Shown piece by piece: positions 1,267-16,782 of a stretch of 27,871 bases of DNA (positions are counted from its first letter, which is position 1; every line of letters starts with the position of its first letter). The stretch comes from a virus, in IMG/VR virus record IMGVR_UViG_3300029787_000233, positions 1-27,871 of that record. One strand, 5' to 3'. Under the pieces are notes generated by a model. The model was given only the letters and a program-made list of their open reading frames with translations. It did no database searches and was not told where the DNA came from. A program made the position numbers and the translations under genes.

Positions 1267-1905
1267 TTACTTCTGTTCTTTCAAGCCGTAAAAATAATTA
1301 GTGTCATCACCCGCTGTCCATTTACTTATAGATTCTACGTTATATTCAATGGTAGATACTTTAAAGTCAGGTTGTTTAGGCTCAGACGGTGTTAACGATT
1401 TATCATAAAATAAAGTCCTATTGTTGGGCTGTGCCGCAAAATGCCCGTTATCCAACTCTAAAATATTAAAAGATTTATGTTCCTCTGGTACCTGTGAATA
1501 GTTAATGTTAGGTAAATTATGGTCAGCATGACAGCTATCTATCGTAAACAAATATTCACCTTGATACCATTTTTTAGAGGGAGACAAATATTTTGCTCTT
1601 GGAGGAACCGTTATTTTTTCAATAACAGTTATATGATAACTAAAAGCATCCCATAATTCTAGCTCCTCTAAACCAATATTTTCTTTTACGTCTGGTGATG
1701 AAACAAAAGCTGAGATAGGAAGTTTGTCGTAAAGTGCTGCATATTCAGGTAAATAAGTTTCAAAGTATAACGCTCTACCTTGTATTGATTTGCATGTTGC
1801 CCATATGCCTTCAACAAATTCACCATGACCTTTTTTATGGTCATACAAATATTCTTTTTTAACATAAACTTTTATTGGTGGAACGTTTGCTACTAAAAAT
1901 GACAT
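1267..1905 (-). CDS. Conserved hypothetical protein following the large terminase
   Basis: A 212-residue protein beginning MSFLVANVPPIKVYVKKEYL. I recognise this N-terminus and the later FDNGHF-like region (ELDNGHFAAQPNNRTLFYD, about residues 150-168) as typical of a conserved family in marine podovirus-like genomes, usually annotated as hypothetical. There are no membrane segments or catalytic motifs I can name. Its ATG overlaps the terminase stop (TAATG at 1903-1907), a tight coupling that suggests a packaging or head role. The gap to the next gene is only 16 bases. Confidence 0.85.
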   Translation of the reverse strand: MSFLVANVPPIKVYVKKEYLYDHKKGHGEFVEGIWATCKSIQGRALYFETYLPEYAALYDKLPISAFVSSPDVKENIGLEELELWDAFSYHITVIEKITVPPRAKYLSPSKKWYQGEYLFTIDSCHADHNLPNINYSQVPEEHKSFNILELDNGHFAAQPNNRTLFYDKSLTPSEPKQPDFKVSTIEYNVESISKWTAGDDTNYFYGLKEQK

Positions 1906-3383
1906 TAATAAAATACTCTCCTTGTGTTATCGACGGGTTCAGGTTCGTAGTCCATCCGCAATTGAATAAGTCCAGATTGTCTAAACCGCATCAACGCTTG
2001 CGTGACCGTATCTACGTAATCGTCATTCTCACCATACGGGAAAGCTGCACATTCTTCAATAACTTCTTCAGCAAAAGTTCTACCTTCAGGATAGTACACA
2101 CAACCTGATTCAAAAATAGGTGCCACTGAATTGACCCGCGACCGCTTATCATTGCCCCGTGTCGGCGTGTAGTTAGTAACCGGAATACCCGCACGACGTA
2201 GTTCGTCGGTCAAGGGCATACCACTAGACTTGGCTTCAATCAAAACCATTTCAGGTTCCCAGTAATTATATTCTTTCAACGCAACATCTTTAAGTTCTGG
2301 AAAGTCGTAACGACCACGACGGGCATCTAATAAAATTAACGACGCCCGTTGATCTTCGGGCGCAAACACACCCCACGTGGTAATCGCAGAATAATCCGCA
2401 GTTTCTTTTTTACTAAAGGCGGTATCGTAACTTTGAATAATGTAATGCAAATCAGGTATTTCTTTTTCTGCCCATGGTCGCCACCACTCGCGTTTTAAGA
2501 TGGCGCCTTCTTCGGAAGTAGGTTTTTGCATCCACTGCGCATTCCATTTAGAAATAGCCAAGGACGCTTTGACTGACTCAAGTTCAGATACTTTCCAATA
2601 CTCGGGCCATGTCGGTTCACCACTATCCATAATTGCGGGAAACTCAACTACCTCCCATTGATCCGCTTTGGGTTCGACTTGGGCTTTCATTAGTTGACCA
2701 GTTAAGTCGACCGTCGACCAACGGGTCATAACCAACACAATCGCACCGCCGGGTTGTAGACGTTGTCGTGGACCAGAGGTATACCATTCGTAAGCGTTTT
2801 CCATCGCTGTTTCCGATAGGGCGTCTTGCTCTGAATGCGGGTCGTCGATAATTAATAAATCCGCACCACGACCAGTAATCGCACCACCAACACCCGCAGC
2901 AAAATATTCACCACCAGCGTTCGTGTCCCAACGGCCGGCGGCCTTGGAATCTGCTTGTAGTAAAGTTTCTGGAAAAATATGTTTGTAGTCAGTAGAATCT
3001 ATAAGCTGTTTAGTTTTACGACCAAACCTTTGTGATAGCTCGGCAGTGTGCGAAGTCTGAATGATTTTGGTCATCGGATTTTTTCCCATGATAAATGCGG
3101 GTAACATGAAAGATGCAAATTCAGATTTTGTATGTCTGGGTGGCATATTCACTATTAATCGTTTTAAGGTACCCTTAGCGATTCTATCAAATTTTTCGGC
3201 TATGATTCTATGGTGGGTCCCTTCTACAAAATGTGGCCACATGTATTTTACAAAATCTAAAAAATTTTCTTGTGCTTTACGGGTCCCTTCTTTCTTTTGT
3301 TTTAACTCAAGGAGTTCTGCGAATAGCTTTCTTTTTTCAGGTTCAAGATCGGTTAGGTGGTCTTTAAAATCTTTTATGTCCAT
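1905..3383 (-). CDS. terL: Terminase large subunit (packaging ATPase/nuclease)
   Basis: A 492-residue protein that pumps DNA into the prohead and cuts the concatemer. The N-terminal ATPase has a Walker A-like PPRHTKS (81-87), Walker B LLIIDDPHSE (176-185; acidic pair D180-D181) and a coupling motif MTRW (219-222). The C-terminal RNase H-fold nuclease shows acidic residues at D320 (SYDTAF), E383 (LIEAKSSG) and D454/D455 (ENDDYVDT). The length is normal for the family. The start at 3383 follows a gap of palindromic repeats, with only a weak ribosome site. It leads the leftward late block. The small subunit is unusually distant (10553-11044) and on the other strand. Confidence 0.96.
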   Translation of the reverse strand: MDIKDFKDHLTDLEPEKRKLFAELLELKQKKEGTRKAQENFLDFVKYMWPHFVEGTHHRIIAEKFDRIAKGTLKRLIVNMPPRHTKSEFASFMLPAFIMGKNPMTKIIQTSHTAELSQRFGRKTKQLIDSTDYKHIFPETLLQADSKAAGRWDTNAGGEYFAAGVGGAITGRGADLLIIDDPHSEQDALSETAMENAYEWYTSGPRQRLQPGGAIVLVMTRWSTVDLTGQLMKAQVEPKADQWEVVEFPAIMDSGEPTWPEYWKVSELESVKASLAISKWNAQWMQKPTSEEGAILKREWWRPWAEKEIPDLHYIIQSYDTAFSKKETADYSAITTWGVFAPEDQRASLILLDARRGRYDFPELKDVALKEYNYWEPEMVLIEAKSSGMPLTDELRRAGIPVTNYTPTRGNDKRSRVNSVAPIFESGCVYYPEGRTFAEEVIEECAAFPYGENDDYVDTVTQALMRFRQSGLIQLRMDYEPEPVDNTRRVFY

Positions 3384-3649: not shown

Positions 3650-3733
3650 CTGGTAGGTACAAGCCGAAGGCCTACTACATATTGTGTCAAGTAATTTATT
3701 TACATTAGATAGCAAAATAGTTGTAGCATTTTA

Positions 3734-3748
3734 TAGCAAATCATGCTA
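3734..3748. promoter_or_regulatory. Operator-like TAGCA-N5-TGCTA upstream of DUF932
   Basis: TAGCA and TGCTA half-sites are separated by five bases rather than the three seen in the leftward promoters, and further AGCA half-sites lie just upstream (from 3713). The site ends 11 bases before the annotated start. No convincing -35/-10 pair was found for this gene. Confidence 0.4.
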
Positions 3749-3759
3749 GATACTGTGGT

Positions 3760-4710
3760 ATGGAAAGACATGCACATTATAGAAAGAAAAATAATATGTT
3801 ACATAATAATATGCATGATATGTCTACTTTTTCATTTCCAGTTGAAATGCAAGAGTTGACTCACAAGATAAACGGCGAGACACATCCGACGAACTATAAG
3901 GCAATTGTTCGCACTGATAGCAATCACTTGCTACACGTGGCGGGCGATAAGTATAAGCTAGTTAGTCATGATAAAGTCTTTGGCGTTTATAACGATCTGA
4001 TCGCAAAAAGCGGTCTTAAACTAGATAACATTGAAATCAATGATGAAGTATTTGACAACGGGCGCAAAGCGTCCCGCGTGATTACTTTCAAGGATCATGA
4101 AGTTAATGTTAACGGTAGCGATAACCTAGCGTTACAGTTACAGCTAAAAAATTCATTAGACTCAACTTGGGTTGCATGGTCAGTATTCGGTGCAATTCGT
4201 TTTCTATGTATGAATGGCTGTGTTTTTGGTGATTGGTCTTTTCAATCAAAAAGAAAACACACTGGCGGGTTTAACCCGTTAGCTGAATCTAAAAAAATAG
4301 GCAACGCTGTTGAAGGGTTCAATACTAATTTTGAGCAAGTTCAACAATGGGCAAATACTATGATCTCATGGGAAGATGTTAAAAAAATCTACTCTGAAAC
4401 CATAGCTAAGTCTAACCGCTCAACAACTCAACGATTAATTAAAGACAGTACTTCTGATTATTCAGAAAATGTTGTTGATGTATTAATGCGACAATGCGAG
4501 CGGGATGCAACGAGCAAAAAGCCGTCTCTTTGGAATGTTTACAACGGGGCAACTTATTGGTCAACGCACGCTGGGCGTGAAGATGCAGGAACTATCAGAG
4601 CCACTGCAGGACTTCACAACGTCCAGCACACTAGACAACAGAAAGTTTCAGCAATGCTGAATTCTGATGTGTGGTTACTTTATACTAACGGACTAAAAAC
4701 CGTTAATTAA
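3760..4710 (+). CDS. DUF932 family protein (phage/plasmid-like, TIGR03299 type)
   Basis: A 316-residue protein. The region HLLHVAGDKYKLVSHDKVF (about residues 53-71) and the later WVAWSVFGAIRFLCMNGCVF (about 137-156) are typical of DUF932 proteins, common in phages and plasmids but without an established biochemical role. Two starts are plausible: ATG at 3760, with no clear ribosome site, or ATG at 3796, preceded by a purine-rich AGAAAGAAAAATAAT. It is the only rightward gene between terL and the small terminase. A strong terminator follows, so it is a stand-alone unit. A 12-bp inverted repeat flanks it exactly. Confidence 0.88.
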   Translation: MERHAHYRKKNNMLHNNMHDMSTFSFPVEMQELTHKINGETHPTNYKAIVRTDSNHLLHVAGDKYKLVSHDKVFGVYNDLIAKSGLKLDNIEINDEVFDNGRKASRVITFKDHEVNVNGSDNLALQLQLKNSLDSTWVAWSVFGAIRFLCMNGCVFGDWSFQSKRKHTGGFNPLAESKKIGNAVEGFNTNFEQVQQWANTMISWEDVKKIYSETIAKSNRSTTQRLIKDSTSDYSENVVDVLMRQCERDATSKKPSLWNVYNGATYWSTHAGREDAGTIRATAGLHNVQHTRQQKVSAMLNSDVWLLYTNGLKTVN

Positions 4711-4734
4711 TCAAATAGCGTGTCTTTCCATATT

Positions 4735-4766
4735 ACGCCACCTAGTGAAAACTAGGTGGCGTTTTT
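4735..4766 (+). terminator. Rho-independent terminator after DUF932
   Basis: A perfect 12-bp stem (4735-4746 with 4751-4762) with a GAAA tetraloop followed by TTTT. It begins 24 bases after the stop codon. Very strong example. Confidence 0.93.
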
Positions 4767-4775
4767 AGTTATCGT

Positions 4776-4805
4776 ACTATCTATTCCCTGAAGGGAATAG
4801 ATAGT
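4776..4805. repeat. Palindromic element, 13-bp stem
   Basis: ACTATCTATTCCC, loop TGAA, GGGAATAGATAGT. It lies ten bases after the DUF932 terminator, with no T-run on either strand. It resembles the other GAA-loop elements. Confidence 0.8.
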
Positions 4806-4861
4806 GCGGGTCTTTTACGAGAAAACTTTAAAAATTCTCTAAAAAAAAAAAAATAAAAGCT

Positions 4862-4881
4862 ACAAGCGACAAGCGACAAGC
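4862..4881. repeat. CAAGCGA tandem repeat
   Basis: About three copies of a 7-base ACAAGCG unit. The same unit recurs near 7060-7078 and 10492-10537. It lies directly upstream of the parS-like site. Confidence 0.7.
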
Positions 4882-4883
4882 AT

Positions 4884-4899
4884 TGTTTCACGTGAAACG
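4884..4899. other. parS: parS-like centromere site (ParB binding)
   Basis: TGTTTCACGTGAAACG matches the bacterial chromosomal parS consensus TGTTTCACGTGAAACA at 15 of 16 positions, including the full 14-bp palindrome at 4885-4898. ParB-type CTPases load at such sites and spread on DNA. It lies in noncoding repeat DNA between DUF932 and the first leftward gene, next to a mirror repeat. No parA or parB gene is visible in the window, so host ParB would be the likely partner if the site works. Confidence 0.75.
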
Positions 4900-4918
4900 A
4901 GCGAGCGAAGCGAGCGAG
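4899..4918. repeat. 20-base mirror repeat, copy 2
   Basis: Identical to 3538-3557, and sharing its first base with the parS-like palindrome. A TTGTGGC-GAA-GCCACAA hairpin follows at 4919-4935. Confidence 0.9.
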
Positions 4919-4935
4919 TTGTGGCGAAGCCACAA
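4919..4935. repeat. GAA-loop palindromic element, 7-bp stem
   Basis: TTGTGGC, loop GAA, GCCACAA. The same 17 bases occur at 7045-7061. Confidence 0.85.
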
Positions 4936-4973
4936 GCGTTCACTATCTGCCGAGCGAAGCGAGGCACTATATG

Positions 4974-5001
4974 TAGTAGGTCGCCGCTAGGCGACCTACT
5001 A
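4974..5001. repeat. Palindromic element, 12-bp stem, downstream of 57-aa gene
   Basis: TAGTAGGTCGCC, loop GCTA, GGCGACCTACTA. The 10-mer TTGTGTCAAG follows at 5006-5015, as it does next to the 3619-3649 element. It lies 22 bases beyond the stop of the leftward gene and has no T-run in that direction. Confidence 0.8.
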
Positions 5002-5022
5002 TATGTTGTGTCAAGAACTTTT

Positions 5023-5196
5023 TTAAAGTTCTTTGACTACTGGTACAACTTCGTAGCCTAGTGACTTGATGTGTCCTATGTCCCAATGGCTCAAGGTTTT
5101 GGTACCTGTTAGAACACAGAAGGTTTTAGCTTTTTCGCACATAGGATAAATCAATTCATTACCATACACACTTCGTACTTGCACTTTTATTTCCAT
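5023..5196 (-). CDS. Small conserved phage protein, 57 aa
   Basis: A 57-residue ORF starting MEIKVQVRSVYGNELIYP and ending GYEVVPVVKEL. The start ATG at 5196 has a textbook GAGGAGA ribosome site and a perfect sigma-70 promoter just upstream (5224-5252). I recall similar 50-60 residue proteins (KVKNVYG...IYP...TL...LGYEV pattern) in marine phage genomes, without known function. It is monocistronic: the next leftward feature is a hairpin, and the gene upstream has its own promoter. Confidence 0.85.
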   Translation of the reverse strand: MEIKVQVRSVYGNELIYPMCEKAKTFCVLTGTKTLSHWDIGHIKSLGYEVVPVVKEL

Positions 5197-5223
5197 ATCT
5201 TTCTCCTCGTTTAAATTAACATC

Positions 5224-5252
5224 ATTATAGCATAATGCTATAATGATGTCAA
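5224..5252 (-). promoter_or_regulatory. Consensus sigma-70 promoter with operator (for 57-aa gene)
   Basis: TTGACA, 17-base spacer, TATAAT, all consensus. A perfect 21-bp palindrome (5224-5244), with TAGCATAATGCTA at its centre (5228-5240), covers the -10 box and part of the spacer, so a bound protein would block polymerase. Confidence 0.92.
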
Positions 5253-5261
5253 GTATTTATT

Positions 5262-5537
5262 TTAACTTTGAGGTAAGTAATTGTCTAGGTCATGTTCGTT
5301 TTGTAGTTCGTTTATTCTTCGTTCGTATAATTCTTCGTCTTCTCTGCTTGGCTCACCTTTGCCGATCAAATCTTTTATGACTACACCTAGTCTTTCGATT
5401 GAGCGTATGTCTGCTCGTTGTCTAAGCAAATCTTCTTTGATGTCTAGCAAAGTTAGAACAGCTACTGTGTTAGTATTAAAAACAGAGAAACCGTGTTTGT
5501 TTTTAAATGTGTTATTGTCTCGTCTTGTCTTGTTCAT
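5262..5537 (-). CDS. Hypothetical protein, 91 aa
   Basis: A 91-residue charged, mostly helical protein (MNKTRRDNNTFKNKHGFSV at the start). Residues about 28-60 (LTLLDIKEDLLRQRADIRSI and on) look like an amphipathic or coiled-coil helix; the C-terminus is acidic. I do not recognise the family. Strong GAGGAG ribosome site, own consensus promoter at 5565-5593. It ends ten bases before the promoter of the next gene. Confidence 0.8.
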   Translation of the reverse strand: MNKTRRDNNTFKNKHGFSVFNTNTVAVLTLLDIKEDLLRQRADIRSIERLGVVIKDLIGKGEPSREDEELYERRINELQNEHDLDNYLPQS

Positions 5538-5564
5538 TATTTATCTCCTCGTTAAATTAACATC

Positions 5565-5593
5565 ATTATAGCATAATGCTAGTACTATGTCAA
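5565..5593 (-). promoter_or_regulatory. Consensus sigma-70 promoter with operator (for 91-aa gene)
   Basis: TTGACA, 17 bases, TATAAT. Operator TAGCATAATGCTA at 5569-5581. The transcript leader, ATGATGTTAATTTAACGAGGAGA, is almost identical to that of the 5224-5252 promoter although the genes differ. Confidence 0.92.
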
Positions 5594-5621
5594 GCATTAA
5601 TTTAAATTAATTTCGTTAGGT

Positions 5622-5646
5622 GGTGAGAGGGCTACGCCCTCTCACC
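5622..5646. repeat. Palindromic element, 11-bp stem
   Basis: GGTGAGAGGGC, loop TAC, GCCCTCTCACC, followed by TTTT on the plus strand only. It lies 18 bases downstream of the leftward 161-aa gene, in the wrong orientation to be its canonical terminator. Confidence 0.8.
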
Positions 5647-5664
5647 TTTTCCAACGAGGAAACT

Positions 5665-6150
5665 TTATGCCACTCGTACGCTATCTGGTATAAGTTCTTT
5701 AGCGTAATCATTTAGTGTATCGTTCGACGTACAGCGTTCGACGTACAATTGCATACCCTCTAGCCAATCGCTCTGGTCGCCGTCACTAGATACCGTAATG
5801 CTGTCGGTAATCTGCGTAATTGCAATCAACATAGCTACAACGTATTTGTCATAGGGTTTTTGTGCTGTCTTACAAAACTCAAACGCTCCCTTTGCAAACT
5901 CTTCCTCGCTCTCGTAGTCGTACTTCGGTCGTTGCTTTCGAGTTAGATAAAAGGTCTCATGACTGTCATCACCTCTACCATTAAATAAGATAGAGTCGTA
6001 GGTAATGGATAAGTTTTGTGAGTCGGTCGGTTCGTTATCTAGTATAACACCGTGGTTATCTTTTAGTATTGTTTTCGCTACCTGACGAACGTTATCCCAT
6101 TCGTCTTCGGTTAGGTCTTTAGTCTGTCGCCAGTAATGAGTATATCCCAT
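5665..6150 (-). CDS. MGYTHYW-family conserved hypothetical protein
   Basis: A 161-residue protein beginning MGYTHYWRQ, the signature of a conserved family found in many bacteria and phages but without known function. Other conserved parts visible: ILFNGRGDDSHETFYL (about residues 54-69), FCKTAQKPYDKYVVA (about 92-106) and VSSDGDQSDWLEGMQLYVE (about 120-138). It looks like a soluble cytosolic protein. Good ribosome site (GAAAGGAAG) and own promoter. It is monocistronic in the cassette region. Confidence 0.9.
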   Translation of the reverse strand: MGYTHYWRQTKDLTEDEWDNVRQVAKTILKDNHGVILDNEPTDSQNLSITYDSILFNGRGDDSHETFYLTRKQRPKYDYESEEEFAKGAFEFCKTAQKPYDKYVVAMLIAITQITDSITVSSDGDQSDWLEGMQLYVERCTSNDTLNDYAKELIPDSVRVA

Positions 6151-6182
6151 TGTTCTTCCTTTCGTTGGTTAGTTAAAACAAT

Positions 6183-6211
6183 AGTATAGCATATTGCTAT
6201 ACTATTGTCAA
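6183..6211 (-). promoter_or_regulatory. Sigma-70 promoter with operator (for MGYTHYW gene)
   Basis: TTGACA, 17 bases, TATACT. The operator variant TAGCATATTGCTA lies at 6187-6199 within a longer palindrome, 6183-6203. The promoter begins five bases beyond the stop of the previous gene. Confidence 0.88.
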
Positions 6212-6215
6212 GTGT

Positions 6216-6446
6216 TTATTTTTGGTAACCTCGTTTTTGTTTTACTGCATAAATCCAATCATTGACAGCCTGACAAAGTTTCCATTCAGCTTCACACCTT
6301 TTTTTATTTTCTTTCAAATGTGGATCACAATCAGTTACAGAATTAAAACTAATATGTGACAATTCATCAGTAATAATCGTTTCTCTATCCGCTATGCCTG
6401 TACTAATCATATCTAACATTTTTCTAGTTAATACTACTCTACTCAT
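6216..6446 (-). CDS. Hypothetical protein, 76 aa
   Basis: A 76-residue soluble protein (MSRVVLTRKMLDMISTGIAD at the start) with three cysteines (DCDPH, KKRCE, KLCQA) and a helical, charged C-terminus. Not recognised. GAGGT ribosome site and own perfect promoter at 6478-6506. It is packed tightly against the next promoter downstream. Confidence 0.78.
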   Translation of the reverse strand: MSRVVLTRKMLDMISTGIADRETIITDELSHISFNSVTDCDPHLKENKKRCEAEWKLCQAVNDWIYAVKQKRGYQK

Positions 6447-6477
6447 AATCTTACCTCGTTGGTTAAATTAAAAACCT

Positions 6478-6506
6478 ATTATAGCATAATGCTAGTACTT
6501 TGTCAA
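6478..6506 (-). promoter_or_regulatory. Consensus sigma-70 promoter with operator (for 76-aa gene)
   Basis: TTGACA, 17 bases, TATAAT. Operator TAGCATAATGCTA at 6482-6494, the same sequence and the same position relative to the -10 box as in the two promoters at 5224 and 5565. Confidence 0.92.
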
Positions 6507-6563
6507 CAACTAATTTAATTTATTTTTTCTTTCACTAGCTGGTGAAATGTTTCGTTTTGGTTG

Positions 6564-6597
6564 AGAGCCAGAGTCTCGATTTTGAGACTCTGGCTCT
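6564..6597. repeat. Hairpin, 14-bp stem, downstream of 101-aa gene
   Basis: AGAGCCAGAGTCTC, loop GATTTT, GAGACTCTGGCTCT. It starts 11 bases beyond the stop of the leftward gene. There is no T-run on either side, so termination without a U-tract, RNA protection or a palindromic element are all possible. Confidence 0.8.
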
Positions 6598-6607
6598 AGT
6601 TATTATT

Positions 6608-6913
6608 TTAGTCTTGATATTTAGGGTCTGTCTCCATGTAGTTGCTGTGTGCATCTCCACCAAGAGCATTAAACCTATCTACCAACTCATTGTTGAGTTT
6701 CTTAAACGCATCGATATATTTCTTAGTTAAACCGATTTCGTATCCGTTTGCCTTAGCGTCTTCGATACGAGCTAGCTCAATCTTCGCAACTTCCATCATT
6801 CGAGTAAGTGCCCACTCTTTAGGTGTTCCTTCTTCTGATGGGTTGAAACGCTCCCACTCTATCAACTCAACTAGTTGTGTAGTGTAGGTGTTTGTTTTAT
6901 ATTCTTTATCCAT
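6608..6913 (-). CDS. Hypothetical protein, 101 aa
   Basis: I chose the ATG at 6913 (MDKEYKTNTYTTQLVEL) because GAGGAGA lies 6-8 bases upstream; the frame is open 15 codons further, but that would cross the likely transcription start. The protein is helical and charged, with a central segment (WALTRMMEVAKIELARIEDA, about residues 34-53) suited to helix packing. Not recognised. It is monocistronic, with its own promoter and a 14-bp hairpin after it. Confidence 0.8.
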   Translation of the reverse strand: MDKEYKTNTYTTQLVELIEWERFNPSEEGTPKEWALTRMMEVAKIELARIEDAKANGYEIGLTKKYIDAFKKLNNELVDRFNALGGDAHSNYMETDPKYQD

Positions 6914-6948
6914 AATTATTCTCCTCGTATTATTTTTATTAATAGCAT

Positions 6949-6977
6949 TGTATACCATAGTCTAGTACAAATGTAAA
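6949..6977 (-). promoter_or_regulatory. Sigma-70 promoter (for 101-aa gene)
   Basis: TTTACA, 17 bases, TATACA. Only one operator half-site (TAGCATTG) is recognisable, and it lies at or downstream of the -10 box, so this copy may escape or weaken control. Confidence 0.7.
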
Positions 6978-7020
6978 GAACTATTTTCACTGCCTGTGGA
7001 TAAGTTTCGTTAGCTAGTGA

Positions 7021-7095
7021 ACGAGCGAGGCGAAGCCGAGCGAGTTGTGGCGAAGCCACAAGCGACAAGCGACAAGCGAGGGCGAAGCCCGAGCT
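7021..7095. repeat. Cluster of GAA-loop palindromes and CAAGCGA repeats
   Basis: Within the 323-base gap 6914-7236 lie GGC-GAA-GCC (7029-7037), TTGTGGC-GAA-GCCACAA (7045-7061), three ACAAGCG-type units (about 7058-7078) and GGGC-GAA-GCCC (7080-7090). The stretch 7054-7074 recurs exactly near 10487-10507. No credible gene was found here; the rest of the gap holds the promoter of the 101-aa gene and one further promoter-like site. Confidence 0.85.
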
Positions 7096-7145
7096 TCGTT
7101 GGATAAGGAACAAGCTCATAATACCCCGCCCTCTTCCACCCTTAT

Positions 7146-7174
7146 ACCCTATCATACTTTGCGAACTTTGTCAA
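7146..7174 (-). promoter_or_regulatory. Promoter-like site without a clear gene
   Basis: A perfect TTGACA is followed after 17 bases by the poor -10 box TAGGGT. A leftward transcript would run through the repeat cluster 7021-7095. It may be a decayed cassette promoter or a source of noncoding RNA. Confidence 0.35.
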
Positions 7175-7236
7175 GCATTTTCTAGCATATAAATGTGGAT
7201 AAGTTTCGTTATCTGCTGGACGTTGGTCTACGGAAA

Positions 7237-7629
7237 TTAGTCGCTTGTCGCTGAAAGCGACAAGCGACTGAGGGTCTTCACTATCTGCTGAAAGCCTTCG
7301 GCTAACGGACTATGATCGTCGAGGGTGGGTCGAGGTTCACTAGCTAGTGAACTATGAAAAAGTTTTGGCGGTGAGAGGTCGACGGTCGAAATCATAATAA
7401 ATTTCAACCCGTGATTTACCTTGTGAAAAGCAATTTGGTGAGGTGAAAAAAATACAGTTTTGTTATCTCTTGTTATTTTTAATTCTACTGTAAAAAAATG
7501 ACCTCCCGCTACACTGCCTATCAAGTCGGGCATACCTCTACTGATAGAATTTTCTAATCTATTCCAACGAATTTTAGGTGTGTTGGTTTTCACCATCTGC
7601 CATAATTTAGTTTCTGTTTTGGCTTTCAT
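7237..7629 (-). CDS. VRR-NUC/PD-(D/E)XK nuclease, Holliday-junction-resolvase-like
   Basis: A 130-residue protein. Residues 31-82 carry the nuclease core: SRGMPDLIG (catalytic D35), then VELK (E49 and K51), then FSPHQIAFH (Q65). This fits VRR-NUC-type phage nucleases thought to cut branched DNA. The natural domain seems to end near residue 85. The last 40 residues or so are encoded by repeat DNA: an 18-bp palindrome (7335-7352), an AGCC-TTC-GGCT hairpin (7293-7303) and a 14-bp-stem element (7239-7269) that supplies the final ten codons. Thus palindromic insertions appear to have replaced or extended the C-terminus. No strong ribosome site is seen at the ATG. Confidence 0.85.
   Translation of the reverse strand: MKAKTETKLWQMVKTNTPKIRWNRLENSISRGMPDLIGSVAGGHFFTVELKITRDNKTVFFSPHQIAFHKVNHGLKFIMISTVDLSPPKLFHSSLASEPRPTLDDHSPLAEGFQQIVKTLSRLSLSATSD
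7239..7269. repeat. GAA-loop palindromic element inside the nuclease CDS
   Basis: AGTCGCTTGTCGCT, loop GAA, AGCGACAAGCGACT: a perfect 14-bp stem built from the CAAGCGA unit. It encodes residues about 120-129 of the nuclease, and the stop codon follows at once. Confidence 0.88.
7335..7352. repeat. 18-bp perfect palindrome inside the nuclease CDS
   Basis: GTTCACTAGCTAGTGAAC has no central spacer. A close relative (TTAGCTAGTGAACGAG) begins the repeat cluster near 7010-7025. Confidence 0.85.
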
Positions 7630-7656
7630 TTTTCACGATAACAACTTTCGCTGTGG

Positions 7657-7736
7657 CGATTGTACTCTTATGCCTCTTGCATTCACCGAGACTAGGTGGC
7701 AGGTGGCGACCCTGTCGCTTTCTAAAAGTACAATCG
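7657..7736 (-). other. Structured noncoding leader upstream of the nuclease
   Basis: The gap 7630-8043 holds a 10-bp inverted repeat (CGATTGTACT 7657-7666 with AGTACAATCG 7727-7736), a crossing 6-bp pair (TATGCC 7669-7674 with GGCATA 7736-7741) and a small GCGAC-AGG-GTCGC hairpin between them (minus-strand sense). The pairs cannot all form in one nested fold, so alternative structures or a pseudoknot are possible. It is transcribed from the promoter at 8026-8054, giving a leader of about 390 bases for the nuclease gene. Confidence 0.4.
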
Positions 7737-7883
7737 GCATAGCGATTGTTTAGTGGCGATAACTTGGTACGCAAATGTTTGAGTTATCATTAAGAGTATT
7801 GAACTAGTATTCACCACTACTCACCACTTGTTTACGCCTTTCATTGTCTACTGGTCTCCTTATTTTAAGTGTCTTACGCGACA

Positions 7884-8003
7884 CTACTCGAGGGCGGTTT
7901 TATCCCTTTTCACAGTAGGTCGAGAGAGCATGCTGAGCGGAAAGCTATTCATGTATAACCGCCTTCTGTACATTCGCATTCGATTACTCTCTCTATTAGT
8001 CAT
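7884..8003 (-). CDS. Possible leader peptide, 39 aa, Arg-rich
   Basis: The first ORF after the strong promoter at 8026-8054. It begins MTNRESNRMRMYRRRLYM and ends at a TAG. There is no good ribosome site (TTAAGTACATA before the ATG) and no recognised family. It could be a chance ORF in a structured leader. Confidence 0.2.
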   Translation of the reverse strand: MTNRESNRMRMYRRRLYMNSFPLSMLSRPTVKRDKTALE

Positions 8004-8025
8004 TATGTACTTAACCAATATTTAT

Positions 8026-8054
8026 ATTATAGCACAATGCTACTTACTTGTCAA
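8026..8054 (-). promoter_or_regulatory. Consensus sigma-70 promoter with operator, inside a gene end
   Basis: TTGACA, 17 bases, TATAAT. Operator variant TAGCACAATGCTA at 8030-8042. The -35 box overlaps the last codons of the 64-aa gene (stop at 8044), so the promoter sits at the end of the micro-operon and drives the region leading to the nuclease. Confidence 0.9.
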
Positions 8055-8238
8055 CATTTAAATTAATAAATAATTTCTCAAATATCGGTTGTCCTTGTTC
8101 TTCAGTATACTCGGGTTCTTTATATTGTCGGTGTTCTCTATTAGTCCAACGAAGCCATTTAGCAAAATTCCAATCGTAGCTTTGAGTTTCGTCGTACTCA
8201 AAAACAAGGTCTTGTCCGCTATCTACTGTATCAGTCAT
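8044..8238 (-). CDS. Small acidic hypothetical protein, 64 aa
   Basis: MTDTVDSGQDLVFEYDE at the start, acidic throughout and rich in W and Y (YDWNFAKWLRWTNREHRQY, about residues 21-39). GGGAGGT ribosome site; its ATG overlaps the stop of the gene before (TAATG). It is the last gene of the micro-operon 9577-8044. Not recognised. Confidence 0.78.
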   Translation of the reverse strand: MTDTVDSGQDLVFEYDETQSYDWNFAKWLRWTNREHRQYKEPEYTEEQGQPIFEKLFINLNVDK

Positions 8239-8423
8239 TACACTACCTCCCGAAACACCGAGTTCTTGAAGTATATTATACCATCCACATCATCTATCCT
8301 AGCTATGGGGTTTAGTTTCTGTTCTTCATCAGATAGTGTGCCTAACCTACACCAGTTGGTGTGTCTATATTTTCGTTTACATCTTTTATCTATAATATCT
8401 TTGTGTATATCAACTACAATCAT
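8238..8423 (-). CDS. Small hypothetical protein, 61 aa
   Basis: A 61-residue protein starting MIVVDIHKDIIDKRCKRKY, with two cysteines and a mixed charge pattern. The start has GGAGG six bases upstream, inside the previous gene, which it overlaps by 14 bases. TAATG junction with the next gene. Not recognised; the position in a tightly coupled operon supports it as real. Confidence 0.75.
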   Translation of the reverse strand: MIVVDIHKDIIDKRCKRKYRHTNWCRLGTLSDEEQKLNPIARIDDVDGIIYFKNSVFREVV

Positions 8424-8553
8424 CTTCTACCTCCTCAATATCTATGTCATGTTTATCTAAATCATAGTACATAATTGTTCCGTCTCTTGCGTCGTCTTCA
8501 TCATCTGCTTCAATGATAAATTCATTGTGAATTGTTATTTTAAATTTTGGCAT
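8410..8553 (-). CDS. Small acidic protein, 47 aa
   Basis: Starts MPKFKITIHNEFIIEADDED and ends with an acidic tail (IEEVEDDCS). The beta-strand-like N-terminus followed by an acidic EADDEDDA segment is a pattern common in tiny phage proteins (K-I-T-I...I-E-A-D-D/S-E-D-E-A). ATG overlaps the upstream stop (TAATG), and the 3' end overlaps the next gene by 14 bases, supplying its ribosome site. Confidence 0.72.
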   Translation of the reverse strand: MPKFKITIHNEFIIEADDEDDARDGTIMYYDLDKHDIDIEEVEDDCS

Positions 8554-8741
8554 TATTCTACTACTCCCCTATCTAGTATAGCTTTTACTTCATCAGCAGT
8601 ATAAAACGGCACACAAGTTTTGTTATCTAATAGAATTTCTAGTCCTCGTGCTTGAGTTATTTCGTTATCTGCTATAGCTTTGATAATCACGTTCAGTTGA
8701 AACTCGCAACTATCAAAAAATCTACTATCTACTGTACTCAC
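8553..8741 (-). CDS. Small hypothetical protein, 62 aa, GTG start
   Basis: A 62-residue protein (MSTVDSRFFDSCEFQLNVII at the start). The GTG start at 8741 is supported by a TAGTG junction: it shares its G with the stop of the 27-aa membrane gene upstream. GCGGGA lies upstream. The sequence looks helical; residues 25-50 include a possible helix-turn-helix-like segment (NEITQARGLEILL), but this is too weak for a call. Confidence 0.7.
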   Translation of the reverse strand: MSTVDSRFFDSCEFQLNVIIKAIADNEITQARGLEILLDNKTCVPFYTADEVKAILDRGVVE

Positions 8742-8824
8742 TACAGTCCCGCAATACTAGTAAACGTATACAGACAAATACAAACTGTAATCGCTATCAT
8801 CCATAAAACTAAAATGTTTTCCAT
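8741..8824 (-). CDS. 27-residue single-pass membrane peptide
   Basis: MENILVLWMIAITVCICLYT and seven more residues: nearly the whole peptide is one hydrophobic helix of about 18-20 residues. GAGGAAGAG ribosome site at the ATG. Its start overlaps the previous stop (TAATG) and its stop overlaps the next start (TAGTG), which is strong support that such a short ORF is translated. It might be a small membrane modulator; the function is unknown. Confidence 0.7.
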   Translation of the reverse strand: MENILVLWMIAITVCICLYTFTSIAGL

Positions 8825-8985
8825 TACTCTTCCTCGCTTTCTAAATGGTCTTGCCATGCTTTATGTATTTCTTTTTTTAAATAAATAATATCATTTTCAT
8901 CATTGCAAATATCTACTAATACGTTTGCAATCCATTTGCTATAATCTTCGTCTAAATAGTATTCTACCATTTCTTTGTTTATCAT
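8824..8985 (-). CDS. Small hypothetical protein, 53 aa
   Basis: MINKEMVEYYLDEDYSKWIA at the start and an acidic end (LESEEE), predicted mostly helical. It overlaps the upstream gene in an ATGA junction and the downstream one in a TAATG junction; AGCGAGGAAGA serves as ribosome site. Its tail resembles that of the gene before (SEEE), perhaps because both ends carry the next gene's ribosome site (GAGGAAGA encodes EE/EEE). Confidence 0.72.
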   Translation of the reverse strand: MINKEMVEYYLDEDYSKWIANVLVDICNDENDIIYLKKEIHKAWQDHLESEEE

Positions 8986-9191
8986 TCTTCCTCGCTTTCT
9001 TGTTTTTCTTCTGCTTCTAATCTAACGTAATCACTATCACCTTCAGTAGCTAGTGTAATTATTACATTCTCGTCGGTATCGACATAGTATTCGTGAGGTA
9101 GGTAAGTTAGTCCATTCCGTACCCCACGAAATATTACTTTGTTTTCAAACCATGCGTTATCTAACAAGTTTTTTAGTTGGTCTACTAACAT
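8982..9191 (-). CDS. Small acidic hypothetical protein, 69 aa
   Basis: MLVDQLKNLLDNAWFENKVI at the start, then an alternating beta-like segment (EYYVDTDENVIITLATEG, about residues 34-51) and an acidic tail. TAATG junction with the DUF3085-like gene upstream. Not recognised. Second gene of the micro-operon. Confidence 0.75.
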   Translation of the reverse strand: MLVDQLKNLLDNAWFENKVIFRGVRNGLTYLPHEYYVDTDENVIITLATEGDSDYVRLEAEEKQESEEE

Positions 9192-9577
9192 TATGCCACC
9201 ACCTTCAACTCAATAGTTTCAGCAGATATGGTAAGAGTAATATCACTACCATTAGCTACACTAGCTAACATAGATGAAGACATTTCCACAAACTCACCGA
9301 AGTCGTCGCCACTTACTAAATAACTATCTTCCCAAACATTTTCGTTAGTGCTAGGATCATAGCCCTCAGCATAAACAGTAAAACCTTCCGTGCTTGGAGT
9401 TTTACCCTTAGCTAGTGAAAAAGCATTCATTAAATAAATGCCGTCGTCTTTTACAAGATAGACACCTTTTTTAGAAGTCGTCTCGTTCGTATAAGGTAGC
9501 TTAAACTTTTTTGCTTTTAAAGTCTGTTGTGCTAACTTACGTAAGTTATCGTTGCTTTTAAATTTTAAAGTGTGCAT
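9191..9577 (-). CDS. DUF3085-like protein
   Basis: A 128-residue protein. The segments KKGVYLVKDDGIYLMNAF (about residues 36-53), VYAEGYDP (about 68-75) and SGDDFGEFVEM (about 88-98) match the pattern I remember for DUF3085, a family of plasmids, phages and alphaproteobacteria without known function. First gene of the leftward micro-operon, with an AGAAAGGA ribosome site and a near-consensus promoter at 9608-9636. Eight genes down to 8044 follow in near-continuous overlaps. Confidence 0.75.
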   Translation of the reverse strand: MHTLKFKSNDNLRKLAQQTLKAKKFKLPYTNETTSKKGVYLVKDDGIYLMNAFSLAKGKTPSTEGFTVYAEGYDPSTNENVWEDSYLVSGDDFGEFVEMSSSMLASVANGSDITLTISAETIELKVVA

Positions 9578-9607
9578 TGTTATTCCTTTCTATTTAATTA
9601 AGTTCTA

Positions 9608-9636
9608 ATTATAGCATTTATTAGCATACTGGTCAA
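9608..9636 (-). promoter_or_regulatory. Sigma-70 promoter for the eight-gene micro-operon
   Basis: TTGACC, 17 bases, TATAAT. Two TAGCAT half-sites (from 9612 and 9622 on the plus strand) are direct repeats here rather than a palindrome, so the operator is an altered form. Confidence 0.85.
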
Positions 9637-9680
9637 ACTAGATGTAGTAGGTCGGTTAAAATAAATCACTAAATGTAGTT

Positions 9681-9848
9681 TTATGGGTAATACACCATAA
9701 CTAGTTCATCATCTGCCATAGCTTTTTCTAAATATATTACTGCACTACGAACGTTTTTGCTGACGTCTTTCTCAGGATGTTTATTAACAAAATTACGTAG
9801 TATATTTATTGCCTCTGTTAATTGGTCTTCTGTTATGTAGTCTGCCAT
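9681..9848 (-). CDS. Small hypothetical protein, 55 aa
   Basis: MADYITEDQLTEAINILRNF at the start and AMADDELVMVYYP at the end. It is helical and reads like a small adaptor, not recognised. AGAAAGAGA ribosome site. It follows the 102-aa gene by about 106 bases with a small hairpin in between (9876-9894), and is probably co-transcribed from 10301-10329. Confidence 0.72.
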   Translation of the reverse strand: MADYITEDQLTEAINILRNFVNKHPEKDVSKNVRSAVIYLEKAMADDELVMVYYP

Positions 9849-9875
9849 AATTATCTCTTTCTGTTTTACTCATAA

Positions 9876-9894
9876 CACCCCAATTTAGGGGGTG
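9876..9894. repeat. Small hairpin, 6-bp stem
   Basis: CACCCC, loop of seven bases, GGGGTG. It lies between two leftward genes with no clear T-run. Confidence 0.5.
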
Positions 9895-9954
9895 CTATGG
9901 GTAGGCTTACTTTCTTTTCGTTAATCCTCGTGCTTCCTACGAAGACTTTTTTCT

Positions 9955-10263
9955 TTATTTGTCTTCTTCTTCTTGTATGGTCTCTGCTATATGGAAAAAC
10001 AAATCCAAAGCAGGAGATTCTTCCCTCCATTCGTCAGGCTTTTGTTCTGGTGTTTTTTCTTCCTCATCTATTTCTTTTATCCAATCATTATTATCTACTT
10101 GAACAACACGATATTCTGCCTGTTCGTAGGCTTCATCCATTTTTTTATCCAACCTGTCCTTCAATTGCTTTAAACAATATTCTTTAGTACCTTTTTTATC
10201 TTTACCAGTTGCCCAAGCCTTTACAAGTCCACTGGAGGTTTTTGCTACAAATGTATATTTCAT
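9955..10263 (-). CDS. Hypothetical protein, 102 aa
   Basis: A 102-residue protein. The N-terminal part (MKYTFVAKTSSGLVKAWATG) looks like beta strands, followed by a charged helix (residues about 28-52) and a long acidic tail (EEEKTPEQKPDEWREE). Not recognised. Strong GAGGAGA ribosome site and own promoter at 10301-10329. The high charge of the tail suggests a flexible region. Confidence 0.78.
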   Translation of the reverse strand: MKYTFVAKTSSGLVKAWATGKDKKGTKEYCLKQLKDRLDKKMDEAYEQAEYRVVQVDNNDWIKEIDEEEKTPEQKPDEWREESPALDLFFHIAETIQEEEDK

Positions 10264-10300
10264 AATTTAGTCTCCTCGTTATTAGTTAATTACTGTATTT

Positions 10301-10402
10301 ATTAGATATGAATTTTTAACGAATGTCAATAGCATTATGCTATTTATTTTATTATTATGCTATTTAATTTACATTGACATCATTTACCACATATAGTAGG
10401 TT
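10301..10402. promoter_or_regulatory. Divergent regulatory region with operator
   Basis: Leftward promoter TTGACA (10324-10329), 17 bases, TCTAAT (10301-10306). The operator TAGCATTATGCTA (10330-10342) lies just upstream of the -35 box, with another half-site near 10357. On the plus strand TTGACA (10374-10379), 17 bases, TAGGTT (10397-10402) is a weaker candidate for the small terminase gene. Here the operator is between the two promoters rather than over a -10 box. Confidence 0.7.
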
Positions 10403-10499
10403 GCTAGTTATGACACACAAGACAGTTTTTTCCCCTTACACTAGCTTACGAAATAAAATTTCAGCAGAATTATTTTTGTTGATGGGAAGCCACAAGCGA

Positions 10500-10552: not shown

Positions 10553-11044
10553 ATGGGCGTACCAAGCAGACTTACAGAAAAACAAATTATATTCATACAA
10601 GAACTTGTTTACAATGAAGGTGAAATTACGGCGACAGAGGCTGCAATTAAAGCAGGCTATCCCGAAGCTAGTGCTAGATCTAAAGCCTCAATGTTGCAAA
10701 ACCCTAAGTATTACCCGTTGGTTGCTGAACGTATCAAACAGGAACGCCAAGAACTACAAAAGAAATATCAGATCACGGCTGACAAACATTTTAAAAAATT
10801 ACAAGAGATACGAGACCGTGCTTTAGAGAACGGTTCTTATTCTGCCGCCGTCAACGCAGAAGTAGCAAGAGGCAAGGCAGGTGGTTTATACATTGACCAA
10901 AAGATTATTAAACACGGTAAGTTGGATCAATTGACTGACCAAGAAGTAGATGAAAAAATCGCTGACTTGATGCGTGAAATGAAGATTATTGACGTACAAG
11001 CAGAAGAGATACCAATACCAAAAGACAAAAAGAAAATTAATTAA
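10553..11044 (+). CDS. terS: Terminase small subunit
   Basis: A 163-residue DNA-recognition subunit of the packaging motor (Terminase_2-like). The N-terminal helix-turn-helix region spans about residues 7-60 (LTEKQIIFIQELVYNEG, then TEAAIKAGYPEASA, then ASMLQNPKYYPLVAERI), followed by coiled-coil (about 60-105) and a charged C-terminus that would contact the large subunit. Excellent AAGGAGG ribosome site. It is rightward, about 7 kb from terL and on the opposite strand, so the two subunits are transcribed separately. Its stop overlaps the stop of the convergent gene by four bases. Confidence 0.93.
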   Translation: MGVPSRLTEKQIIFIQELVYNEGEITATEAAIKAGYPEASARSKASMLQNPKYYPLVAERIKQERQELQKKYQITADKHFKKLQEIRDRALENGSYSAAVNAEVARGKAGGLYIDQKIIKHGKLDQLTDQEVDEKIADLMREMKIIDVQAEEIPIPKDKKKIN

Positions 11045-14718: not shown

Positions 14719-16577
14719 TTAGCGTCACCCCAGTTGTCAGCTAGGGCGTAATCAACCTTACTCGGTATATGTAGTTTAACACAGGTTTCCATTTTAGTCG
14801 CAATGTCCTTAGCTTGAGTTTCGTTTTCTACAGATATATTGAGTTCATCATGTACCTGTATATGTGGTATAATACCATCCTCTTCATATAAGTCTACCAT
14901 TGCTTGTTTAGTTTGATCTGCCGCAGAACCTTGTATTAACTTGTTTAAGGCTTTGTAAGTTCCGGCTCTTTTATATTGACCGTGACCTTCAGCATCAATT
15001 GCTTCTTCTTTAGTTTTATAAAAACCTTTCTTACCAAACTCTCTTGGTTCGTAAAAAGGAAAGCGACACAACCGACCCTGCAAGGTTTTAATTTTGCCGC
15101 GTGCCTCTGCTTCGATCATTAAGTTCTTGGTTAGTTGTTTTACAAACGGCACTCGGCTTTGATAGGTGTTAATAATTTCTTCTGCTTCTTTACTATCAAT
15201 ACCTAACTCAGTCATAAGTTTGTGTTTACCCATACCATAAAACAAACCAAGATTAATTGTCTTTGCTTGTCCACGTGGTATCTGTGCAATGTCTGCCACC
15301 ATCTGATGAAAGTCAGCCTCACCTTGGCGATAGCCTTCTACTATCTTACCAACCTCTAAATTATCCATGTACGCGTAGTGCACCACTAGTCTTGGTTCTT
15401 GTTGTGAGTAATCAAACGTGCCCCAACGTAAACCACGTTCAGGAACAAACAAACTACGGATTAGTTTTTTAATCTTAGGATTACGTGCAGGTATCTGTTG
15501 CAGGTTTGGATTGGAATAACTGAAACGACCAGTGACCGTCCCCCCATCATCACTGCGCATCTGATGTATTTCAGAGTGAATACGGCCTTTGTGTTGGTGT
15601 CGCATGATAGTTTCAATAAATGTACTATTGGCTTTGTTTAGTTCTCTTGCTTCGACAATCTTTTGTGCCAGTGGGTGTTCGTTGTTAGATAAAAAGTTTT
15701 TAGTAAAACTAGGTGCGCCAGTTTTAGGTGTGCGTGGATACTCTATCTTTAAATGATCAAAGGCTTTAGCAATAGAAGCTGCCGCCCATACCTCGACGTC
15801 GTGACTAGATATTTTCTTTATCTCTCGCATAATAGTTTTCTCTTGTGCGCTCAAAGTTTTACGTGCTTGTTCTGCGGCGTCAAGATCAACTCGAACACCA
15901 TGAGCACGCATATCAATTAAACAAGGTTGTAGTCGACGTTCAAGATCATATATGCCTTCTAAGTTTTGTGCCGCAATCTCAGTTTGATTGTACAAAAACA
16001 AATCATAAGTCAAACGTGCGTCTGCTTCAGCGTACTCACCAACGTGCATAGCGGGTAGTTTGTACATTTCTTTTTTAGGATCAACGCCATGGTTCTTTGC
16101 TGCTTCGATCAATCTGTTTTCGTTCTTGGTTCGTCCTAGTTTATCTTTAGCTAAACTGTTCAAAGTAAACGAATATCTGTTTTCATCAATTAGTGCACTT
16201 GAAATCATAGTGTCGTGTATGATACCATTTACGGTTATGCCCATGTGTCTAAGCCAACCTAAATCATACGACGCATTGTGAAATATTTTTTCTGCTTTAC
16301 TGCCAGCAACTTTCTTAAACCACTCCACCACAGTTTTTTTATTAAGATTACCGCCGCCGTGTGCAATTGGGTAATAGCCTTCCCAATCTGCCGTAGCGAC
16401 AGCAATCCCTGTTACATAACCGTCGTTCCGCGCCCAACCTGAACCGTGCGTAATCAAGTTAACGTCGCATGTCTCTAAGTCAATCGCAATATATTTTTCT
16501 TTGCTAAGGTCAGGAAAATATTCTTTCGCTGTCCATTCTATAGGTTCGTTATACGTAAATAAATTAGTCTGATTCAT
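14715..16577 (-). CDS. polA: DNA polymerase I (family A) with 3'-5' exonuclease
   Basis: 620 residues. Exonuclease: DLE (D33/E35), NASYD (101-105) and YAEAD (182-186), so proofreading looks intact. Polymerase: motif A FDYSQQEPR (D389, E394, R396), motif B RGQAKTINLGLFYG (R435, K439, L443, Y447) and motif C VHDE (575-578; D577, E578). The residue aligning with E. coli F762 is L443 (codon 15249-15251). No N-terminal 5'-3' nuclease, as usual for phages. The short form fits a replicative phage enzyme. Overlaps the DUF3310 gene by 14 bases and the zinc-ribbon gene by four. Confidence 0.97.
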   Translation of the reverse strand: MNQTNLFTYNEPIEWTAKEYFPDLSKEKYIAIDLETCDVNLITHGSGWARNDGYVTGIAVATADWEGYYPIAHGGGNLNKKTVVEWFKKVAGSKAEKIFHNASYDLGWLRHMGITVNGIIHDTMISSALIDENRYSFTLNSLAKDKLGRTKNENRLIEAAKNHGVDPKKEMYKLPAMHVGEYAEADARLTYDLFLYNQTEIAAQNLEGIYDLERRLQPCLIDMRAHGVRVDLDAAEQARKTLSAQEKTIMREIKKISSHDVEVWAAASIAKAFDHLKIEYPRTPKTGAPSFTKNFLSNNEHPLAQKIVEARELNKANSTFIETIMRHQHKGRIHSEIHQMRSDDGGTVTGRFSYSNPNLQQIPARNPKIKKLIRSLFVPERGLRWGTFDYSQQEPRLVVHYAYMDNLEVGKIVEGYRQGEADFHQMVADIAQIPRGQAKTINLGLFYGMGKHKLMTELGIDSKEAEEIINTYQSRVPFVKQLTKNLMIEAEARGKIKTLQGRLCRFPFYEPREFGKKGFYKTKEEAIDAEGHGQYKRAGTYKALNKLIQGSAADQTKQAMVDLYEEDGIIPHIQVHDELNISVENETQAKDIATKMETCVKLHIPSKVDYALADNWGDAK

Positions 16578-16782
16578 GTAGCTCTATTAATTTCTGTATA
16601 AACCAAGTAGATTTTTTTAAGTCTTCTACTTGCTTGCCTTTATGTTCGTAACGCCATAAATATTTCATAGCACTACCTTGTAAATAATACTTAAATCCAT
16701 CACCTAAGCAAGACTTAATAGCGTCAATGCATTCAATATCGCCGCGCTTGTAGTGTTCTGGATGGTTTACTGGATCTTTCAT
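16564..16782 (-). CDS. DUF3310 family protein (nucleotide kinase-type annotation)
   Basis: A 72-residue protein: VNHPEHYKRGDIECIDAIKS (residues 5-24), YLQGSAMKYLWRYEHKGK and a final helix DLKKSTWFIQKL are typical of DUF3310. Members are often labelled putative nucleotide kinase in phages, although the size makes that doubtful. ATGA junction with the helicase gene and a 14-base overlap with the polymerase gene. Its place in the replication operon supports a role in DNA or nucleotide metabolism. Confidence 0.9.
   Translation of the reverse strand: MKDPVNHPEHYKRGDIECIDAIKSCLGDGFKYYLQGSAMKYLWRYEHKGKQVEDLKKSTWFIQKLIELHESD

Follow-up and report, generated by a model that had tools for sequence, protein, structure and literature searches.

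The question raised by this locus is whether the end of a phage nuclease gene has been built from palindromic elements that entered it and are translated, or whether an ordinary coding sequence carries signals superimposed on its codons. The gene occupies positions 7237-7629 on the minus strand of the window, i.e., the whole 27.9-kb stretch of DNA analysed here (27,871 nucleotides, part of a 29-kb viral record), and the original prediction was that three palindromic elements make up roughly its last 40 codons, as in Rickettsia. The reading that we favor, and consider rather probable, is that the conserved and compact end of this gene doubles as a binding-site-like and transcript-end-like DNA or RNA signal, and is not an insertion of the Rickettsia type.

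The resolvase gene and its surroundings

The gene codes for 130 amino acids, and by fold and motif its product is a Holliday-junction resolvase of the Hjc/VRR-NUC PD-(D/E)XK type with a predicted activity, in agreement with the VRR-NUC-like nuclease named from the sequence alone. Its PHROG matches are nuclease and resolvase families, namely 2165 (E 2.5e-11), 93, and 5702 ("Holliday junction resolvase," E 6e-4), and the PD-(D/E)XK active-site motif is present, with P34 D35 and E49 L50 K51 invariant across an alignment of 42 relatives. The AlphaFold2 model (mean pLDDT 88.9) retrieves Hjc, RecU, and HJ resolvases as best Foldseek matches; the best fold match in the PDB is the archaeal Hjc of A. 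fulgidus (Z 11.6 over 113 residues), and the VRR_NUC structure 4qbo scores below it (Z 8.7). A profile of the 42 relatives found nothing among PDB sequences, while the fold comparison did give matches. In Pfam, 13 of these 42 relatives match Hjc weakly (best E 0.006) and one matches VRR_NUC. Size, fold, PD...ELK motif, and phage context are thus shared with archaeal Hjc and with the stand-alone VRR-NUC Holliday-junction resolvases of the PD-(D/E)XK class, used as comparison family (PMC4103454), whereas the window protein itself differs from both families in having no Pfam match.

The window belongs to a marine phage of the same kind as pelagiphage HTVC027P. It carries genes for DNA polymerase, helicase, and terminase (names read off the sequence), and the resolvase gene sits between those for the terminase small (10553-11044) and large (1905-3383) subunits. 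The order terminase small subunit, resolvase, terminase large subunit is common to the window, Pelagibacter phage HTVC027P, and phage 023Pt_psg01, and in the latter two the resolvase homologue is not annotated; in HTVC027P it lies at 16216-16587, and the annotated gp32 (16499-16747, minus strand) is an antisense open reading frame over the resolvase end and a heptamer array. The annotated phage collection holds no nucleotide relative of the window, and Pfam and Rfam searches of the window gave no match. The near-clone record L004 is identical to the window across 6183-9764 and is therefore uninformative on the origin of the hairpin described below. Between 5695 and 6182, differences from L004 concentrate in one small gene of these otherwise near-identical records, which suggests a recent recombination.

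Several other signals lie around the gene. About 60 nt past its stop, a promoter-like TTGACA-N17-TATGAT for the next gene (7148-7176, minus strand) was read from the sequence; this site shares the repeat family D2 with other promoters and is absent from the sites listed by the promoter scan. Perfect consensus sigma-70 promoters (TTGACA-N17-TATAAT with TG) are found on the minus strand at 5224-5252, 5565-5593, 6478-6506, and 8026-8054, some of them within near-perfect palindromes, and 5216-5252 is promoter-like on both strands. The gene at 8044-8238 ends within the perfect -35 box of the next promoter (8044-8054; codons VDK plus stop), and the gene at 5023-5196 ends within a hairpin (5013-5033). 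A canonical-type parS centromere site, TGTTTCACGTGAAACG, is present at 4884-4899. Each record in the clade of the window (L004-L009) has one such site with 0-1 mismatch, located in a spacer, and these spacers are unlike in sequence; the match is exact in L006 and L008, and none was found in the L010 fragment. No ParB_N domain was found in the records of this clade, at least 120 stretches among viral contigs contain an exact parS site, and it is possible that the sites of the clade capture the ParB of the host. The parS core in L013-L015, L029, L032, L051, and HTVC027P lies within the F-H-V-K-H codons of the resolvase and was not counted as a centromere.

Conserved residues and a dispersed palindromic motif

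If the tail had been added to a complete enzyme, the usual end of the protein would be expected near residue 85-90, as had been proposed. This is not the case, because the C-terminus of the relatives is homologous and the terminal helix (residues 113-129 of the AlphaFold2 model) is confident. In at least 80 viral relatives the protein is about 120-135 amino acids long and has a C-terminus that can be aligned with that of the window, with few truncated or longer exceptions. For example, the C-terminal stretch PLAEGFQQIVKTLSRL of the window aligns to PLADSWSEIQKIFEEI in L027, PIAQSWEDIQKIFEEI in L054, and PLAEGLADCLKVFEKV in L023. Residues 89-129 belong to the modelled fold, the mean pLDDT is 97 at residues 111-120 and 78 at 121-130, and structural alignments with Hjc reach residue 126-130 of the model. 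Homology runs through about residue 123, so that only some 6-7 residues (roughly LSATSD) extend past the homologous end, and the gene has no length excess over its relatives; the tail peptide of the window is LSLSATSD, and the corresponding one in relatives with array-coded tails is LDACCLGLDACR. The gene end is thus ordinary conserved coding sequence carrying superimposed short DNA signals, and the purely hairpin-derived residues are only the last six to ten. What appeared to be a translated palindrome is, on this re-reading, mostly conserved enzyme. Among the matches listed there is no relative between 65% and 99.5% identity to the window, and therefore the origin of the hairpin is not observed directly.

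The three elements cover 60 of the 124 nt assigned to them, and to say that they make up the last 40 codons was an overstatement. The AGCC-TTC-GGCT hairpin is indeed present at 7294-7304 (minus strand), in the conserved PLAEG stretch at codons 109-112, but its stem has 4 bp and its folding energy is no lower than that of shuffles (z -0.8); the PLAEG residues recur at this position in L023. The 18-bp palindrome is perfect and was found, as described, at 7335-7352 (codons 93-99). By itself it is mildly unusual, since a perfect stem of at least 9 bp arises in 1.5% of shuffles of the resolvase gene; in the whole window, 15 perfect hairpins of at least 9 bp are seen against about 1.6 expected. Its standing as an acquired element did not survive comparison with the relatives. 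L008 and L009 encode LASEPR there (CTA GCT AGC GAA CCA CGA), in homologous and imperfectly palindromic DNA, and L007 encodes SLAVVPRP from the non-palindromic codons TCG TTA GCC GTT GTC CCT CGA, i.e., S-L-A..P-R-P without the palindrome, which for this element is the observation named in advance as a refutation. From these alignments, the palindrome is homologous coding DNA, also present over the corresponding codons in L008 and L009.

The 18-bp palindrome is highly significant, however, once taken as one copy of a 16-bp motif that is dispersed through the window. The motif is the quasi-palindrome TWCRYTAKCTRSYGWA, two-fold symmetric, and its best copy (TTCACTAGCTAGTGAA, 7336-7351, matrix score 22.0) lies within the palindrome. 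Another copy within the resolvase gene, TTCACTATCTGCTGAA, is found at 7277-7292 (score 18.4), and others lie in spacers, one downstream of the resolvase gene (7205-7220) and one at 7006-7021 (TTCGTTAGCTAGTGAA). Scored with a symmetrised position weight matrix, the window has 37 sites where shuffles have 3.2 on average, a count that is somewhat optimistic because the matrix, seeded with five of the sites, was refined on its own hits. Clustering of 16-mers is unaffected by this; without composition correction it returned A/T-rich runs only, and in its unbiased, composition-corrected form TTCGTTAGCTAGTGAA at 7006 tops the families that are not of low complexity. Matches to the consensus with at most one mismatch number 17 against 0.18 expected, the consensus being taken from some of those sites. 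Copies range over 3701-10452 and elsewhere in the window, most of them at 3.7-10.5 kb, where 19 of 27 sites are coding and 8 lie in spacers, in proportion to length (coding share 69%, 0.69). In 6.3 kb, L008 has 12 matrix sites and L009 has 9, with the resolvase site in both; no excess above background was found with the matrix in L005-L007, L010, or the wider family. Being symmetric, dispersed, and indifferent to coding, the sites may be bound by a dimeric phage regulator; no DNA-binding regulator was identified within the window. As expected of dispersed operators, the sites are numerous beyond chance, nearly identical, and symmetric. Mycobacteriophage L5 likewise has dozens of short stoperators across its early genes and spacers. 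Those of L5 are asymmetric 13-mers, whereas the putative operator of the window is a two-fold symmetric 16-mer.

The hairpin at the stop codon and the heptamer arrays

The strongest single element is a 31-nt hairpin at 7239-7269 (minus strand), with a 14-bp stem and a 3-nt GAA/TTC loop, which takes up codons 121-130 exactly and reaches one base into the stop, so the claim that such an element supplies the final ten residues holds to the letter. Its stem length was reached in none of 2000 shuffles of the resolvase gene, its RNA folding energy is -24.5 kcal/mol (z -8.6), and the window has six perfect hairpins of at least 14 bp where none is expected. Nearly all other long hairpins of the window (stem of at least 11 bp) lie between genes, as had been stated. 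On the minus strand, the resolvase gene, the hairpin (7269-7239), and the promoter-like TTGACA-N17-TATGAT repeat the layout of gene, hairpin, and promoter seen at 5665-6150, 5646-5622, and 5593-5565 and again at 6608-6913, 6597-6564, and 6506-6478. None of these three hairpins is followed by a T-run; AATTTCCG stands directly 3' of the one in the resolvase gene, which was accordingly rejected as an intrinsic (rho-independent) terminator in spite of its strength, and is absent from the terminators listed by the scan.

Hairpins at this position recur among the relatives. One of at least 7 bp lies across the resolvase stop in 9 of 68 distinct gene ends, where 0.4 are expected; for the ends of other genes the figure is 9 of 277 (Fisher p 0.003). 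Kinship weakens these statistics, since related sequences share one element (TTTAGAANNNTTCTAAA; AGAACCTGAACTAGGTTCT) and the independent cases are about five. The hairpin sequences differ between groups of relatives, so signals at the resolvase stop recur and turn over. A TTTAGAANNNTTCTAAA-like palindrome contains the TAG stop in six loci (L008, L009, L027, L032, L051, and L054); it presumably resembles the alphaproteobacterial Irr iron-control element, and a search of papers for this reading of TTTAGAANNNTTCTAAA found nothing.

The hairpin contains the heptamer GCTTGTC, which is also found in nearby spacers. Downstream of the resolvase gene, a spacer block (7018-7092, minus strand), recognized by repeat comparison and related to a block at 4857-4967, has GCGAAGC mini-hairpins and three GCTTGNN units, GCTTGTC-GCTTGTC-GCTTGTG (CAAGC at 7059, 7066, and 7073). 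Most relatives have GCTTG at 7-nt intervals, on one strand, through the last 80 nt or so of the resolvase gene and beyond its stop; such an array lies within 100 nt of the stop in 66 of 80 loci among the matches listed, and a spacing of 7 dominates (812 pairs). Strand-specific arrays near the terminase genes were seen at the resolvase end and downstream in L011-L083 and at 16506-17733 in HTVC027P; in HTVC027P they are confined to 16.5-17.7 kb of the 49.6 kb examined. In most relatives, this 7-letter repeat shapes the resolvase gene end far more strongly than the hairpin does in the window. Among the array-coded tails (42 distinct ones), GCTTG is conserved at codon positions 1-3, third positions included (0.45, 0.38, and 0.53 bits), and the N letters are variable (1.11, 0.87, and 1.65), compared with 0.42, 0.32, and 1.08 in the gene core. 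A tail was taken when it had five or more GCTTG units, and this selection lowers the values at the motif positions somewhat. Conservation of GCTTG has a p of 1e-5 overall and 1e-4 at third positions, and the true register is the best of seven. At the gene end, the array constrains the DNA more than the codons. The peptide encoded by the arrays repeats every 7 residues (LEACCLGLDACRLKLE) because three units of 7 nt equal seven codons, and the predicted model of an array-tail protein retains helices there (pLDDT about 94). Arrays of the GCTTGNN class are also known from bacterial spacers, with examples in Pseudomonas, Halomonas, and Alcanivorax genomes, whereas the phage array crosses a coding end and a stop, in one orientation, near terminase genes. 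The literature on heptanucleotide repeats in marine phages, with few subscription journals covered, gave no description of a GCTTGNN array.

Overlap, insertion, or erosion

In the favored overlap of conserved codons and signals, roughly 37 dispersed copies of TWCRYTAKCTRSYGWA, of which the 18-bp palindrome is one and the site at 7277 another, would be sites of a dimeric regulator, and the 14-bp hairpin over the last ten codons and the stop would act as a transcript-end structure between the resolvase gene and the next promoter, containing a GCTTGNN repeat concentrated in the region from terminase small subunit through resolvase to terminase large subunit. Translation of the hairpin arm would then be a side effect that adds about 6-7 residues to the C-terminal helix, and the last residues may be functionally neutral. 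Pure chance, by which palindromes of such sizes in 124 nt would be meaningless, accounts for the 4-bp hairpin and gives the 18-bp palindrome, taken alone, a P of about 1.5% per gene. It is extremely improbable for the locus as a whole and is refuted for the 14-bp hairpin, whose stem is never reached in the shuffles and whose z is -8.6, and for the motif, where the palindrome belongs to a family of 37.

That mobile palindromic elements like those of Rickettsia entered or replaced the gene end and are translated is unlikely. Rickettsia palindromic elements are multi-copy insertions of about 100-150 nt that are absent from orthologues. The locus is like them in that a palindrome is read as codons and similar repeat units lie in spacers: a single hairpin makes up exactly the last ten codons, GCTTGTC units are common to it and to spacer blocks, and the other long hairpins of the phage are in spacers. 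The element differs from them in being 31 nt long, at a gene end, without length excess, and in single copy, its only matches in its own genome being itself and its inverted self-match and its only match elsewhere in IMG/VR the near-identical record. Moreover, the residues are homologous through about 123, relatives use other codons for residues homologous to those of the 18-bp palindrome, and spacers show no enrichment in 16-bp sites. Entry or replacement therefore fails for most of the region and stands only narrowly, for the final ten codons, which are a hairpin with an intergenic GCTTGTC; insertion can cover no more than the last 6-10 codons, and for these, too, it is unproven. Erosion of an array, in which an ancestral GCTTGNN array running through the gene end, like that of most relatives, was reduced to one or two units that fold back as a hairpin, is doubtful. 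The GCTTGTC in the hairpin, the three units in the downstream spacer, and array-coded tails in 49 of 71 tree rows speak for it, but such a tail is found in 0 of 8 members of the clade of the window, and the non-array tails with a W..IQ..F helix (L027, L038, L053, L078, and L205) are an equally possible ancestral state in an unrooted tree.

For phages of the HTVC027P kind, a broader proposal is put forward tentatively: a strand-specific array at the terminase locus may have overwritten the C-terminal helix of the resolvase, and the hairpin of the window may be its reduced relic. If so, one stretch of DNA would serve both as an array of binding sites and as a protein helix with a heptad repeat (7 amino acids from 3 x 7 nt), and the GCTTGNN array would be a possible replication or packaging site. 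The array-tail relatives are the clearer case, and allow a direct test of how a DNA signal and a protein share one sequence in abundant ocean phages.
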